Shown here piece after piece: positions 8,732-31,647 of a stretch of 49,267 bases of DNA (the first letter of the stretch is position 1; every line of letters starts with the position of its first letter). Source of the DNA: Balneolaceae bacterium (GTDB lineage: Bacteria; Bacteroidota; Rhodothermia; Balneolales; Balneolaceae); contig SKYV01000178.1 of assembly GCA_007127745.1 (NCBI GenBank), forward strand, positions 1 through 49,267, in the 5' to 3' direction. Below the pieces are notes generated by a model. The model worked only from the letters and a program-made list of their open reading frames with translations, had not been told where the DNA came from and ran no database searches. The position numbers and the translations under genes are program-made.

Positions 8732-10177
8732 ATGTCAAACTTAGATAGTAAGACCTTAAAGGTGGGAATGGTATTCATTTCCATCGTTTTCTTCATCTTC
8801 GGGTTTGTCACTACGTTTATTATCACACTTAGTGACCCTGTGATGGAAGCCTTTGATCTGAGTTACACTGAAGCTTTTTTGGTGAACTCGGCGTTTTTTA
8901 TCTCCTATGCGATTTTCTCGATACCCTCTGGTGCAGTCGTTAAGAAAATCGGTTATAAAAATTCAATCGTTGCAGGATTGTTAATTTATGCCGTAGCCGG
9001 ATTTTTGTTTTATCCTGCCATCGGCCTGGAATCCTACATATTCTTTTTAGGAGCCATTTTTATTCTTTCACTTGGTACAGTATTGCTGCAGACTGCTGCA
9101 AATCCATATGTAACCGAGCTTGGCCCTGAAGAAACAGCTTCCGGTCGGCTGAACCTGACCCAGTCGCTGAACTCAATTGCTACATGGCTTGCACCACTGT
9201 TTATTGTAGCACTCATCATTCCTGCCGAAGTTCTCGATGGTGCTATGGAAGAAATGATGGAAGCTGCTGCTGTACAGCCCGGCGACTTATTACTGCCTTT
9301 CCTCATTATCGGTGGAGTAACCTTAGTTATTGCCATTGCTGTCGCCTGGATCCGACTGCCGGACCTCAGCCAGGAAGGTGTAGGAAACTACTCCAGTACG
9401 TTCAAATATCGCCACACTTTGCTGGGCGCTTTTGGAATTTTCTGTTACGTGGGTGCCGAAGTGAGTATCGGAACCTCGATTTCATCATACATTGTACAGC
9501 CCGATCTTGGCGGAGGCATCAGCCGTTCGCTCGCCATTCAGTTTGTTGGATTGTATTGGGCAGGAGCCATGATTGGCCGGCTCTTTGGAGCAATTGCCAT
9601 GTCTGACATCAAGAACAAGCAAACGAAAACACTCATGGTGTTTGGTGTGCTTATATGGGCGTTCTTTGTTGCCATTTATACACTTGACTGGAACTTGCAA
9701 ATGGCATCGATATTCCTCGGGTTCGCAATTGCCAATTACTTGCTGATGCAGCTTGGTACAGGCCGTGCAAACCGTATTCTTGCTATCTTTGCAGTGGTTG
9801 CGATGGTACTTGCAATTACTTCAATGCTATCAACCGGCCGACTTGCCCTCTGGACAATTGTAACCATTGGCTTGTTCAATTCAGTAATGTTCCCCAACAT
9901 ATTCACGCTTGCCGTTAAAGGATTGGATCGCAGCGAAGTCAGCCTTGCGTCCGGTATCATTAACACGCTGATCGTTGGTGGTGCTGTTGTTCCGGTAATT
10001 ATGGGAGCAGTAGCTGATATGTACAATATTGAGATCGCATTTATCGTGCCTGTTGTATGTTATGCATACATCCTTTTCTATGCGTTGATTGGAAGCAAAA
10101 TCAAGCCGAAAGAAGGAGCTGTTGCTGCTGCACCGGCAACTTCCACAGGCGTAGATCCCGAACACAAAGATGTTTAA
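8732..10177 (+). CDS. MFS transporter, FHS (fucose/glucose/galactose:H+ symporter)-like
   Basis: 12-TM hydrophobic pattern; LGTVLLQTAANPYVTELGPEETASGRLNLTQSLNS matches the FHS-family signature; follows a ROK kinase. Confidence 0.88.
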   Translation: MSNLDSKTLKVGMVFISIVFFIFGFVTTFIITLSDPVMEAFDLSYTEAFLVNSAFFISYAIFSIPSGAVVKKIGYKNSIVAGLLIYAVAGFLFYPAIGLESYIFFLGAIFILSLGTVLLQTAANPYVTELGPEETASGRLNLTQSLNSIATWLAPLFIVALIIPAEVLDGAMEEMMEAAAVQPGDLLLPFLIIGGVTLVIAIAVAWIRLPDLSQEGVGNYSSTFKYRHTLLGAFGIFCYVGAEVSIGTSISSYIVQPDLGGGISRSLAIQFVGLYWAGAMIGRLFGAIAMSDIKNKQTKTLMVFGVLIWAFFVAIYTLDWNLQMASIFLGFAIANYLLMQLGTGRANRILAIFAVVAMVLAITSMLSTGRLALWTIVTIGLFNSVMFPNIFTLAVKGLDRSEVSLASGIINTLIVGGAVVPVIMGAVADMYNIEIAFIVPVVCYAYILFYALIGSKIKPKEGAVAAAPATSTGVDPEHKDV

Positions 10178-26591: not shown

Positions 26592-26920
26592 ACGGTTTTT
26601 CTTTTCAAGATATGAATGAAAGTTGTGTCTTGAAATTTTTCTCCGAAATTCTCCGCAGAGTTATGAACGGAGGGCTCTTCATATTATCGGAAGCAATTGA
26701 AGGTAAGATTGCACACCAAAGTTATTTGAATTATTATGGGGCAATAACCTGCTGTAAATGGCGAAGAATAACGGTTGATACTGAGGATTGGAGCTAACAC
26801 AAAGCTGATAACCAAATTTTTGGTACAGCCTCGGCTTGGTAGAAATACCACCAAGGTGCTAAACCTTTTTTGAATGATTATCTTATTTATAACTAAAATC
26901 ATTTTTTATAACCGAACAGC

Positions 26921-27352
26921 ATGAGCGAACAAGATATACGGTGGAAACAGCGTGCTCAAAATTTTGAGCTGGCATTTCTCCGGCTGAAAGAAGCGATGGA
27001 GATGGAAGAGTTGAATGAACTGGAAAGAAACGGACTGATACAGCGTTTTGAATTTACAATCGAGCTGGCATGGAAAGTGCTGAAAGACTATTTGGAGCAT
27101 AAAGGATTCGAATTTAACCCTTCACCAAAAGACACCATTCGCCTGGCTCAGCAAAGTAAATTTATTAATTATGCCCAGGAACTGTTGGATGGGCTTCAGA
27201 TCAGAAATGAACTTTCACATGATTACAGCGGTGAAAAGTTTGAAACCCGCGAACAGCAGCTTCGGGAAGAAACCTGGCCAGCACTTCAAAAACTATACCG
27301 ATTTTTCGTAAGTGAAGGCGGCACCAATCAAACGGATTTGTTTCATGATTGA
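26921..27352 (+). CDS. HEPN-fold protein, HI0074/HepT-like (toxin or nucleotidyltransferase substrate-binding subunit)
   Basis: QIRNELSHDYSG matches Rx4HxY; directly upstream of an MNT-type nucleotidyltransferase with an 8-nt overlap. Confidence 0.88.
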   Translation: MSEQDIRWKQRAQNFELAFLRLKEAMEMEELNELERNGLIQRFEFTIELAWKVLKDYLEHKGFEFNPSPKDTIRLAQQSKFINYAQELLDGLQIRNELSHDYSGEKFETREQQLREETWPALQKLYRFFVSEGGTNQTDLFHD

Positions 27353-27677
27353 AAAAACAAAAAACCGGTTCGGGCTTACCGAAAGAGACATGGAGACGTT
27401 CTGGACAGTTTTTAAAAAATTTCCGGAGGTGAAATGCGTGCATGTTTTCGGCAGCAGGGCAAAGGGAAATTACCATACTGGCAGCGATGTGGACCTGGCT
27501 GTGATGAATAAAGGTGTGTCGGCAGACCGTCTTTCAAAAATAAAAGATGAATTCGAGGAAAGCAGTTTGCCCTATATTGTAGATTTGGTGGATTATAACC
27601 GTATAGATAAACAGGAATTTATTGATCACATAAACCGCGTAGGCGTACCTTTTTATACGCGGGATGAAAAAAATTGA
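27345..27677 (+). CDS. Minimal nucleotidyltransferase (MNT/MntA-like antitoxin)
   Basis: VFGSRAKGNYHTGSDVDLAV fits GS-x10-DxD; ATG at 27345. Confidence 0.88.
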   Translation: MIEKTKNRFGLTERDMETFWTVFKKFPEVKCVHVFGSRAKGNYHTGSDVDLAVMNKGVSADRLSKIKDEFEESSLPYIVDLVDYNRIDKQEFIDHINRVGVPFYTRDEKN

Positions 27678-27937
27678 GGTGTCATAACATGGCAGACGAA
27701 TATGTTGTCAACGGCTACTCTCGTGTTAACAATAAAAAGACTGGCATATGATCTTTGCACCGATTAATTCATTTACCGGTGATGTTGAATGTACTGTTTG
27801 GGAGTATAGCGGCTTAAAAAGCAGCCTGATATACCTTTGGAAGTGGTTTGGAGTAATATGACTTTGTTTTAACCTAAATTGTTTGGTTAATTAAATACAT
27901 GTTATACAGCTTAATAGAGAACAAAATCTAAACATAA

Positions 27938-28261
27938 GTGTTGAAAAAATTCCACTCTCACTTAGTTCTTTATCACAGGGATTCAGAACTTATTAAATCC
28001 CTCAATTTTGGTGACTTTAACATAGATTTAGAGTTAGAGCCTGAACCAACCAGAACTTATTGGAGGTCTAAAGATGGTGTTGAATCACATTACTCTGAAA
28101 GCCAGTTAGATGCCCCAAATAAAAAATCAATTCCATCAGACCAATTAATAATAGTAGCTGAAAATGAAGGTATTGCTGAGGATGCTTTATCAACTATCAA
28201 AGGAGGTATATTATTAGCTTATCCAGATCTAACTGATAGATATGCAGCAAGATGTAATTAA
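27938..28261 (+). CDS. Hypothetical protein, first gene of an overlapping two-gene unit (GTG start)
   Basis: 107-aa ORF overlapping the next ORF by 20 nt in another frame; AT-rich; no family recognised. Confidence 0.55.
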   Translation: MLKKFHSHLVLYHRDSELIKSLNFGDFNIDLELEPEPTRTYWRSKDGVESHYSESQLDAPNKKSIPSDQLIIVAENEGIAEDALSTIKGGILLAYPDLTDRYAARCN

Positions 28262-28979
28262 TGTAGATGAATTCGATTCAAAAATCTATACAGATCAGGC
28301 ATTCCATAGTTCTTTTAAACGATTTAATCATGTGGGATATGGGTGTTATGTACTAAATAAGTCGTATGGGGATGACAGCATTCAATATGCAATTGAAAAA
28401 TACAAACTAAGTTTAGAAATAAATTCAATGACGCCTCATTCAGCCAATCCCAAATATGGTCAAATGTTTGATCATTATAATGTTGATAAAAGATATCATA
28501 CGAGTGGTGCCTTTGCTATAATTGCAGCTTTTTCGGCAGTTGAAGAATTAGGTTTAGAAATTAGATCAAGCCCAAAGAAACACAGATTTATAGATAATGA
28601 AAAAGGGGTTTGGAATCCCACAGTCCTCAATGACCTCAAAGAGAGGTTAGAGAAAATTGGAATAACACAGGAAAATACGTTTGACTGGATATTTAGAGGG
28701 GAAAAGACTGAAGTAGAAAAGGATCTTAAACCCTACTTTGGTCATGATTCACAATGGACTAAAATAAATGAAGAGGTACGAGATAAGACTCTAACTTTTC
28801 CAGAAGCAATTCACAACTTAAGCTATTTAAGAAATTTCATAGCTTCTCATAAGTTTAAAGAACTCACTCAGTTTATAAGTCCATATGATATTTTTAATGC
28901 ACAAAGTTTAGCTAGAAATCTAATTCTAAGAACTCTTGGTATTTGGCAAGTTGACATTTATAAAAAAGACCGTATCTAA
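28242..28979 (+). CDS. Hypothetical protein with HEPN-like C-terminal motif
   Basis: 245-aa ORF; C-terminal NLSYLRNFIASHKF (R-x5-H) followed by a helical AQSLARNLILRTLGIW. Confidence 0.65.
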   Translation: MQQDVINVDEFDSKIYTDQAFHSSFKRFNHVGYGCYVLNKSYGDDSIQYAIEKYKLSLEINSMTPHSANPKYGQMFDHYNVDKRYHTSGAFAIIAAFSAVEELGLEIRSSPKKHRFIDNEKGVWNPTVLNDLKERLEKIGITQENTFDWIFRGEKTEVEKDLKPYFGHDSQWTKINEEVRDKTLTFPEAIHNLSYLRNFIASHKFKELTQFISPYDIFNAQSLARNLILRTLGIWQVDIYKKDRI

Positions 28980-29052
28980 TCTGTATAACAGACCGTAAGC
29001 CCTCACTAAACAATTTCGTTGCATGGATACCGTCAAACTGTTAAATAGCAGA

Positions 29053-29363
29053 ATGATCAAATCATTCGGAGATAAAGCAACATTAGATCTATTTCATGGC
29101 ATAGCGCTTCGCGGTACTATCGTATCAAGCACCAAAATCAGGAAGATCCTGTCCCAAATTCTTTATCCGCCACCTATAAACTGGATATGCTGAATGCTGC
29201 CACTTCTCTTGATGATTTGCGTTCACCGCCCGGCAACAAGCTTGAAGCATTGTGGGTGATTACAAAGGTTTTCATAGCATTCGAATCGTAGCCCAATGGA
29301 CAAATGTATTCCGATGGCAGGATTCCAATACTTATGATGTTACTATTGTATATTATCATTAAT
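29053..29363 (+). pseudogene. higB: Frameshifted higB/RelE-type toxin relic
   Basis: Frame pieces MIKSFGDKATLDLFHGIA / RYYRIKHQ...YKLDMLNAATSLDDLRSPPGNKLEAL / GDYKGFHSIRIVAQWTNVFRWQDSNTYDVTIVYYH* assemble a HigB-like protein across two frameshifts. Confidence 0.88.
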
Positions 29364-29384
29364 GCATAAAATTGGTGAATCATC

Positions 29385-29675
29385 ATGATTCCAAAAAACA
29401 GAGTAACCACACATCCCGGTACCATATTACTGAAAGAGTTTATTGAGCCAATGGGACTAACCCAGAAGGAGTTGGCGGATCATTTGGACATCCCCATTCA
29501 GCGGTTAAACAAAATTGTAAGAGGCAAAAGAGGAATCTCTCCGGATACGGCTTGGCTGCTATCGCAAGCGTTCGATACCTCTCCCGAATTTTGGTTGAAT
29601 TTGCAGTCCAAGTATGATCTGTCTGCCAATCGGCCAAGCAAACATATTAAGCCTCTTAAGGCTGTTCAGTCGTAA
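29385..29675 (+). CDS. higA: HigA-family HTH antitoxin (VapI-like)
   Basis: NRVTTHPGTILLKEFIEPMGLTQKELADHLDIPIQRLNKIVRGKRGISPDTAWLLSQAFDTSPEFWLNLQSKYDL. Confidence 0.93.
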   Translation: MIPKNRVTTHPGTILLKEFIEPMGLTQKELADHLDIPIQRLNKIVRGKRGISPDTAWLLSQAFDTSPEFWLNLQSKYDLSANRPSKHIKPLKAVQS

Positions 29676-29745
29676 CCGGCAAATCACCTTGGATTAATCC
29701 TGGGAAGGGACAATTTTCACTGAAACTATCAATTAATCAAACACA

Positions 29746-30525
29746 GTGTATCTAAAAAAACTATTATCACTTGCAGTACCTCTTGCATTTCTAATGATCC
29801 TCATCACATCTGGAACCGTTATTGAATCCGAAACAGATGAGCTGATTGAAAGGGCCAAGCAGAAAATAGATGACAAAAATGAAGAAACAGCTCTCGAGCT
29901 TTTTAAACAGGTTCTGGAAAAAGATCCGGGAAATTACACAGCCCTTTGGAACAAAAGCCTGCTCACAACAAGAAAATATTACCGGGTAGATGATGAAGAT
30001 AAACAGCTCGAAGGTTATAAAGAGGCACTTAAAATTGCTGAAAAGACCTTAGAGTTGCATCCGGACAAGGGGCACTCCTATTATGTGTATGCGATAGCTA
30101 AGGGCAGATATTCAGAACTTGAGGGTACCCGTGATATGATCAGAGCCTCACATGTTATCAAAGAGAAAATTGAAAAAGCAGCCGAATTAATTCCCGATTA
30201 TGCCCCGGTATGGCATCTTTATGGAGTTTGGCACTCCGATATAGCCACTGCCGGCAGAACTGAAAGAAGTGTTGCAAGGCTTATATCAAGAGGGTTACCT
30301 GACGGTGCTGAAGAAGAGAAAGCTGAAAAATACCTGAAGAAATCTATTGAGATGATGCCTGAAAGTATTCTGTTTCGCGTTGATCTTGGCAAACACTACA
30401 TTGAAATTGGAGAAAAAGAGAAAGCAATAGAGATTCTTGAAGAAGCCGCCTCTCTGGAGCCAAAAATGATGGATGACGACGACAAAAAAAAAGAGGCCAA
30501 AGAACTGCTGGAGGAGCTTAGGTAG
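29746..30525 (+). CDS. TPR-repeat protein with N-terminal hydrophobic/signal segment
   Basis: ETALELFKQVLEKDPGNYTALWNKSLL and EKAIEILEEAASLEP TPR-like units; GTG start. Confidence 0.75.
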   Translation: MYLKKLLSLAVPLAFLMILITSGTVIESETDELIERAKQKIDDKNEETALELFKQVLEKDPGNYTALWNKSLLTTRKYYRVDDEDKQLEGYKEALKIAEKTLELHPDKGHSYYVYAIAKGRYSELEGTRDMIRASHVIKEKIEKAAELIPDYAPVWHLYGVWHSDIATAGRTERSVARLISRGLPDGAEEEKAEKYLKKSIEMMPESILFRVDLGKHYIEIGEKEKAIEILEEAASLEPKMMDDDDKKKEAKELLEELR

Positions 30526-30631
30526 CTCTCTCTATAAGATCAAAGCAAATCGAGCGGACGGGTTCGCGGTAGGACGTTGAATCTAAAATAACTCCGCCGC
30601 TCATTTACCAAACCGTTAAGTACCTTTAGAA

Positions 30632-30958
30632 TCAGGCTGGTTCCAACTCTCCTTCTAACAGTTTACCTATCTGTTTTTTTGATGTTCCAAGCCTTAGAAG
30701 TGCTTTAATCATCAGATCCATTGAAATACCAGGATCACCACCTTCAAGCTTGGCAATGCGTGATTGGCTTGACCCGATTGCACGTGCAAGTTGTTCCTGG
30801 GTCCACCCTCTTTTCGAACGTTGGCTTTTTACCATATTACTGATATCCAGACGAATGTCAATGTAGGCCTCTTCTTCCGGTGTCAGTTCCAAAAAATCTG
30901 CGGCTGAGCCTACCCTAAATCCTTTTTCTTCCAGTTGTTTTCGTTTCTTCTTATCCAT
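30632..30958 (-). CDS. XRE-family HTH antitoxin
   Basis: RSKRGWTQEQLARAIGSSQSRIAKLEGGDPGISMDLMIKALLRLG. Confidence 0.88.
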   Translation of the reverse strand: MDKKKRKQLEEKGFRVGSAADFLELTPEEEAYIDIRLDISNMVKSQRSKRGWTQEQLARAIGSSQSRIAKLEGGDPGISMDLMIKALLRLGTSKKQIGKLLEGELEPA

Positions 30959-30976
30959 GATATTTCCTGTACTTAA

Positions 30977-31306
30977 CTACTGTTTGTAACGAGTCAGACG
31001 CTTTTTGCATACATCAATGACTTCCTGCGGCGTCTTTTTTGTTTTCTTCGCGAATACGTCCAATATGACAATGGCATCATCATCAATGAAATAGATAATG
31101 CGCCACGTTTTATTTTTATCGTTGACGCGAAGTTCATGACATTTTTTTCCAACAGATGGCATTGGCCTGGAATCCGGCAATTCAAGTAATTCACCTTTTT
31201 GAAGCCTTCTTAACAGAAAGCCGGCTTTAATTCTGGCATCTGCCGAAAAAGGCGGAGTTTTTACTTCTCCCTGAATCCAGACTAATGGTTTATCATTATC
31301 AGACAT
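30977..31306 (-). CDS. RelE/HigB-superfamily toxin, phage Gp49-like
   Basis: LLRRLQKGELLELPDSRPMPSVGKKCHELRVNDKNKTWRIIYFIDDDAIVILDVFAKKTKKTPQEVID is typical of Gp49-like toxins; precedes the XRE gene. Confidence 0.88.
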   Translation of the reverse strand: MSDNDKPLVWIQGEVKTPPFSADARIKAGFLLRRLQKGELLELPDSRPMPSVGKKCHELRVNDKNKTWRIIYFIDDDAIVILDVFAKKTKKTPQEVIDVCKKRLTRYKQ

Positions 31307-31444
31307 AAACTAATATGTCGAATATGACATAAATAAGCAATAGCACAGGTGGGTACTTAACATCTTTAAAAAAGACAATGTCAAGGGTAAATAGCTTTGG
31401 GGAGTTAACCCATTTTTCAAATCATTCCCATCACGATTCTCTTC

Positions 31445-31482
31445 TTTCTTTTGTCTTGATACAAAAGAAACAAAAAATCAAG
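31445..31482 (+). repeat. Perfect 10-bp hairpin whose 6-nt loop is complementary to a downstream 6-mer (H-type pseudoknot potential)
   Basis: TTTCTTTTGT-CTTGAT-ACAAAAGAAA-caaaaa-ATCAAG; the CTTGAT loop pairs with ATCAAG. Confidence 0.75.
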
Positions 31483-31647
31483 GCGGTGAATTGCTTGACG
31501 GCGGGCTTTTCATCAATGCGGCACCATTTGAATATTTATAATGGTTTATTTGTTAAAACGACATAAAATTGGGGTAACTTCTGTAAATAGCTTTCCCACC
31601 GCATATTCTACGCTTTCGCTATTATTGAAAGGTTGTTACCACCAAAA

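Follow-up and report, generated by a model that had tools for sequence, protein, structure and literature searches.

A frameshifted gene for a putative HEPN ribonuclease with integron-cassette ends in Balneolaceae

Within the 49,267-nt stretch of Balneolaceae DNA that was analysed here (the window), two overlapping open reading frames raise the question of whether they form a two-gene toxin-antitoxin or defence module or are something else. The original prediction took the first, ORF1 (27938-28261, + strand, 107 aa), as partner or regulator, and the second, ORF2 (28242-28979, + strand, 245 aa), as a HEPN effector. The observations behind this proposal were accurate. The ORFs overlap by 20 nt and are AT-rich, with a GC content of 0.33-0.34 against 0.40-0.54 in adjacent stretches; neither has a match in Pfam, NCBIfam or PADLOC; the RN-x4-H motif is present, as SYLRNFIASHKF; and the ORFs are flanked upstream by an NTase_sub_bind/MNT pair and downstream by an orphan higA with a decayed higB.

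Comparison with relatives changes the picture. In G211, G267 and G203 (L002-L004) one unbroken 346-aa frame spans both window ORFs. ORF1 aligns with residues 1 to ~100 of the intact proteins at ~61% identity, and ORF2 aligns with the remainder at 71-74% identity over ~240 aa. Synonymous sites are near saturation between the window and the intact relatives while nonsynonymous differences are 0.26-0.27 for ORF1 and 0.14-0.16 for ORF2, so that both parts were under purifying selection. Because the relatives carry one intact 346-aa ORF, the window copy is, on the evidence of the aligned sequences, a single gene whose frame is broken within the 20-nt overlap. The features of the locus are the following.

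26592..31647, no strand: variable island that holds the cassette; its flanking genes lie close together in relatives.
27901..27907, + strand: half-site GTTATAC (R' box), the left end of the cassette; pairwise homology starts here to the base and the full attC of the relatives ends at this box.
27941..28258, + strand: N-terminal part of the gene; the likely start is TTG at 27941, as in G119, and GTG at 27938 is also possible.
28228..28262, + strand: frame-break zone, across which L002-L004 are open.
28242..28979, + strand: C-terminal part with the predicted HEPN core and R-N-x4-H, assigned from identity to relatives, the invariant motif, an AlphaFold domain model and fold matches.
28982..28988, + strand: half-site GTATAAC, the R'' box of the attC that belongs to the cassette itself and is otherwise no longer recognisable in the window; the same box lies directly past the stop codon in G267 and G203.

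The source assembly is a draft of 287 contigs, and the frameshift could therefore be an assembly error; unless it is, the window copy is probably inactive. The window sequence was left unrepaired, and intact relatives were used in its place in the analyses. Other broken or truncated copies occur in Bradyrhizobium (L008), Defluviimonas (L010), Lentibacter (L014) and Kiloniella (L022), and gene decay recurs within the protein family. The original prediction had itself named, as a result that would refute it, homologues showing one housekeeping gene split by a frameshift. The split gene was found, but it is accessory, not housekeeping. More generally, frameshifts in draft assemblies can mimic toxin-antitoxin operons.

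The gene lies in an accessory island rich in toxin-antitoxin genes. The gap between the flanking esterase and amidinotransferase genes measures 112-372 bp in eight relatives versus 5.06 kb in the window, where it is filled by a PF08780/MNT pair, the HEPN cassette, a decayed higBA, a TPR gene and a HigBA-type pair. The first of these, an NTase_sub_bind (PF08780) gene overlapping an MNT nucleotidyltransferase gene (26921-27677), is a separate HEPN/MNT-like module of the island. At 29019-29675 higB is decayed and the higA after it intact; G203 carries the homologous pair with both genes intact (L035 6964-7588, minus strand). The second HigBA-type pair (30632-31306, minus strand) consists of a Gp49-like toxin and an XRE antitoxin.

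The distribution of the gene is rare and patchy. Among 396 genomes of the phylum that were searched, four besides that of the window, all from its own family, carry a relative, one copy being cut by a contig end. The gene is present in 5 of 92 Balneolaceae genomes; one carrier (G203) is Rhodohalobacter sulfatireducens. More distant relatives, of ~30-40% identity, lie on plasmids of Ensifer and Roseovarius and also on chromosomes of Alphaproteobacteria, and the gene was found in 4 of 395 genomes of the order of Roseovarius. In the contig search a single-protein query gave no matches and an alignment query retrieved the relatives. Phage and viral collections contained no relatives.

How such a gene comes to lie at different loci is suggested by its ends, and here the original prediction had overlooked that the gene is an integron cassette. 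In the relatives it is bracketed by GTTATACAACTT upstream and AAGTTGTATAACAA, or a close variant, downstream, both being outer boxes of attC sites of integrons; the R'' box is degenerate (GTATATC) in G211. Complete attC sites of 89-123 nt are found on both sides of the gene in G211 and G267 and downstream of it in G203, where similar sites also occur near the integrase gene. In most of them the bottom strand forms the imperfect hairpin expected of attC (z -1.1 to -2.2). A search of the window for a complete attC found none; the two half-sites at 27901 and 28982 remain, and the fold at the R'' box reaches a z of only -1.2. An integron integrase (TIGR02249, above the curated cut-off) is encoded in all five carrier genomes. 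The one belonging to the genome of the window (G000:C79:302-1240, L045) is full-length and lies on a short contig, on which no attC was found.

The strongest evidence for a cassette, as judged from sequence comparison, is the homology boundary at G|TTATAC. When carrier loci were compared in pairs, homology began exactly at this recombination point wherever the left end was reached, and GTTATAC formed the left boundary in G211, G267, G203, G119 and the window (at 27901, G119 versus window). Pairwise homology stops inside attC and the surroundings differ, the loci being non-syntenic. The attC bounds in the relatives, the G|TT boundary shared by different loci and the presence of an integrase together indicate that the gene moves as an integron gene cassette in the Balneolaceae relatives. 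The exact GTATAAC...GTTATAC pattern was also tried as a genome-wide statistic; it proved overly strict and did not exceed its reversed control in frequency, and was therefore not used as evidence of enrichment. Inspection by eye of the alphaproteobacterial copies revealed no attC-like ends. As in the window, toxin-antitoxin genes are the neighbours in the relatives: the G211 cassette lies between HigBA-type and Phd/YoeB genes and that of G203 adjoins an RHH/PIN pair. This RHH/PIN toxin-antitoxin pair is common to G203 (L035 ~8870-9610, minus strand) and G211 (L033 8877-9614) and is probably also a cassette, since homology starts near a GTTAT half-site.

The libraries searched contain no description of the protein family. 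None of the Pfam, NCBIfam, PADLOC, PHROG and PDB sequence families covers the protein, and the matches obtained are of the kind expected by chance. The PADLOC match to Cas13a (E 0.017) covers residues 137-193, ahead of the motif, and concerns a single member only. PDB entry 4r1h (Lmo0741, E 0.004) aligns over 70 residues outside the motif; besides this chance-like match, PDB sequence searches up to E 10 gave no related chain.

Assignment to a function begins with the motif, R299-N/S-x4-H305 in the numbering of L009. The frequency of the loose pattern R[polar]x3-5H in the other proteins of the window is 0.26 per 245 aa, so that the motif on its own would be weak evidence, and it is its conservation across the alignment that carries the weight. 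The arginine, the following asparagine or serine and the histidine are kept at the same spacing in the window and in 18 of 18 intact relatives, those of ~30% identity included; the exception is the decayed Bradyrhizobium copy. The R/H conservation on which the original prediction had made its case depend is thus borne out, and the HEPN superfamily is characterized by an Rx4-6H motif, conserved throughout a family, in which R is followed by a polar residue.

Structure prediction, another check that had been proposed, points the same way. An AlphaFold model of the C-terminal domain built with 16 sequences (pLDDT 75.6, pTM 0.78) shows a HEPN-like four-helix core at the motif, with helices at 73-92, 116-128, 176-192 and 204-222 and an insert at 129-175 that separates core helices two and three. 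R187 and H193 are located at the end of helix 176-192, ahead of helix 204-222. In HEPN enzymes the motif is found where helix 3 ends, and the modelled layout of helices and motif matches the arrangement given for them by Anantharaman et al. (2013, PMC3710099). The full-length model is weaker (pLDDT 63.7). Foldseek comparison with the PDB gave a best E of 0.48 and nothing at E <= 0.001. HEPN proteins account for 16 of the best 50 PDB fold matches, none individually significant. Csm6 is represented by eight chains; the others include 2hsb, a HEPN domain with a TM-score of 0.51 on the target, the HEPN-MNT toxins 7ae2/7ae9, the sacsin HEPN domain (3o10) and 4nqf. A viral fold library gave no matches. 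That all profile and fold matches fall short of significance would fit a helical protein other than HEPN, for example a cassette-borne regulator, in which R-N-x4-H serves another purpose. We consider this unlikely, as the motif is invariant, has a polar second residue and stands at the expected structural place, and HEPN proteins are strongly enriched among the fold matches. The C-terminal part is likely, not proven, to be a HEPN domain, its fold being supported by the model only. Of the HEPN effector originally proposed, the conserved signature and the modelled four-helix core stand, but the effector/partner arrangement falls, since there is one gene.

If the domain is HEPN, it could act as the toxin in a type VII HEPN-MNT pair, with a neighbouring nucleotidyltransferase neutralising it. 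On the Roseovarius plasmid pTHAF8_d a 103-aa MNT gene indeed follows the HEPN homologue with an overlap of 8 nt (L007 5608-6994), in the window an MNT gene is situated ~260 bp upstream, and HEPN-MNT structures occur among the fold matches. Yet pTHAF8_d is the only one of 22 loci searched where an MNT motif immediately adjoins the gene; the other alphaproteobacterial copies and, in G211 and G267, the cassettes bounded by attC have no adjacent MNT, and the window MNT is already paired with its own PF08780 partner. The pairing is therefore quite improbable as a general explanation, and the MNT of pTHAF8_d is possibly a secondarily acquired antitoxin. The pTHAF8_d locus adjoins HipA and PrlF/YhaV toxin-antitoxin genes. 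The neighbourhood search that had been suggested to reveal co-occurring genes gave no partner conserved across the loci, the solitary gene being the common form. A genuine operon of two translationally coupled genes, with gene 1 as partner or antitoxin, to which the 20-nt overlap of the window ORFs would lend itself, is hardly credible, as the intact relatives carry one continuous frame and in none of them was a separate ORF1 gene, or a conserved pair of separate genes, found.

In view of this, the locus is best explained, and with good probability as a whole, by a single frameshifted gene of ~346 codons, borne on an integron cassette and encoding a HEPN RNase of the defence or toxin type. The product is predicted to be a metal-independent HEPN ribonuclease. 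Its N-terminal alpha/beta domain of ~95 residues may sense or regulate, and in the HEPN four-helix core R-(N/S)-x4-H would cut RNA once triggered, probably as a dimer. We infer RNase activity, its activation and a role in defence, the last from a context that is accessory, integron- and plasmid-borne and rich in toxin-antitoxin genes: the protein would be a stand-alone, trigger-activated RNase, most likely of the abortive-infection or anti-phage type, with growth arrest or phage defence as the outcome. Among Balneolaceae it would have spread as a single-gene integron cassette beside toxin-antitoxin genes. Tentatively, the family may represent undescribed single-gene HEPN RNase immune effectors that have their own sensor domain and no antitoxin, and that spread within Balneolaceae as cassettes and within Alphaproteobacteria by other routes.

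Although no library searched describes the family, it belongs to a known kind. Anti-phage genes in integrons have recently been shown mainly in Vibrio and in mobile clinical integrons. An integron-borne HEPN domain is already known from the PDB 3jrt family (Anantharaman et al. 2013, PMC3710099). Like the present gene, it combines a HEPN domain with Rx4-6H and an integron cassette, but it was described from Gammaproteobacteria and the present family has an additional N-terminal alpha/beta domain. PDB sequence searches up to E 10 gave no relationship to 3jrt, which is also absent from the best 50 fold matches listed. HEPN-MNT systems (HepT/MntA) share the modelled HEPN fold, the R-polar-x4-H motif and, at one Roseovarius locus, an adjacent MNT, whereas their proteins have ~140 aa against ~346 aa here and a conserved MNT partner is lacking here. 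The CRISPR-associated RNases Csm6/Csx1 give the top, though not significant, fold matches of the HEPN core; the present family differs in showing no CARF domain and in having no CRISPR neighbours noted. One-protein HEPN defence also exists, in DS-11 (CBS-HEPN; PMC13092281), where, as proposed here, a single gene couples a HEPN domain with a second one that may be a sensor; the N-terminal domain found here is not recognised as CBS. Integrons moreover store phage-defence genes, according to work (Darracq 2025, Kieffer 2025, Getz 2025) cited in passages of PMC12444791 and PMC13092281. Since integron defence stores, DS-11 and the integron-borne HEPN of 3jrt precede it, the kind is not new; what the present gene adds is a candidate effector family, missed by the annotation libraries searched, in the integrons of a different phylum.
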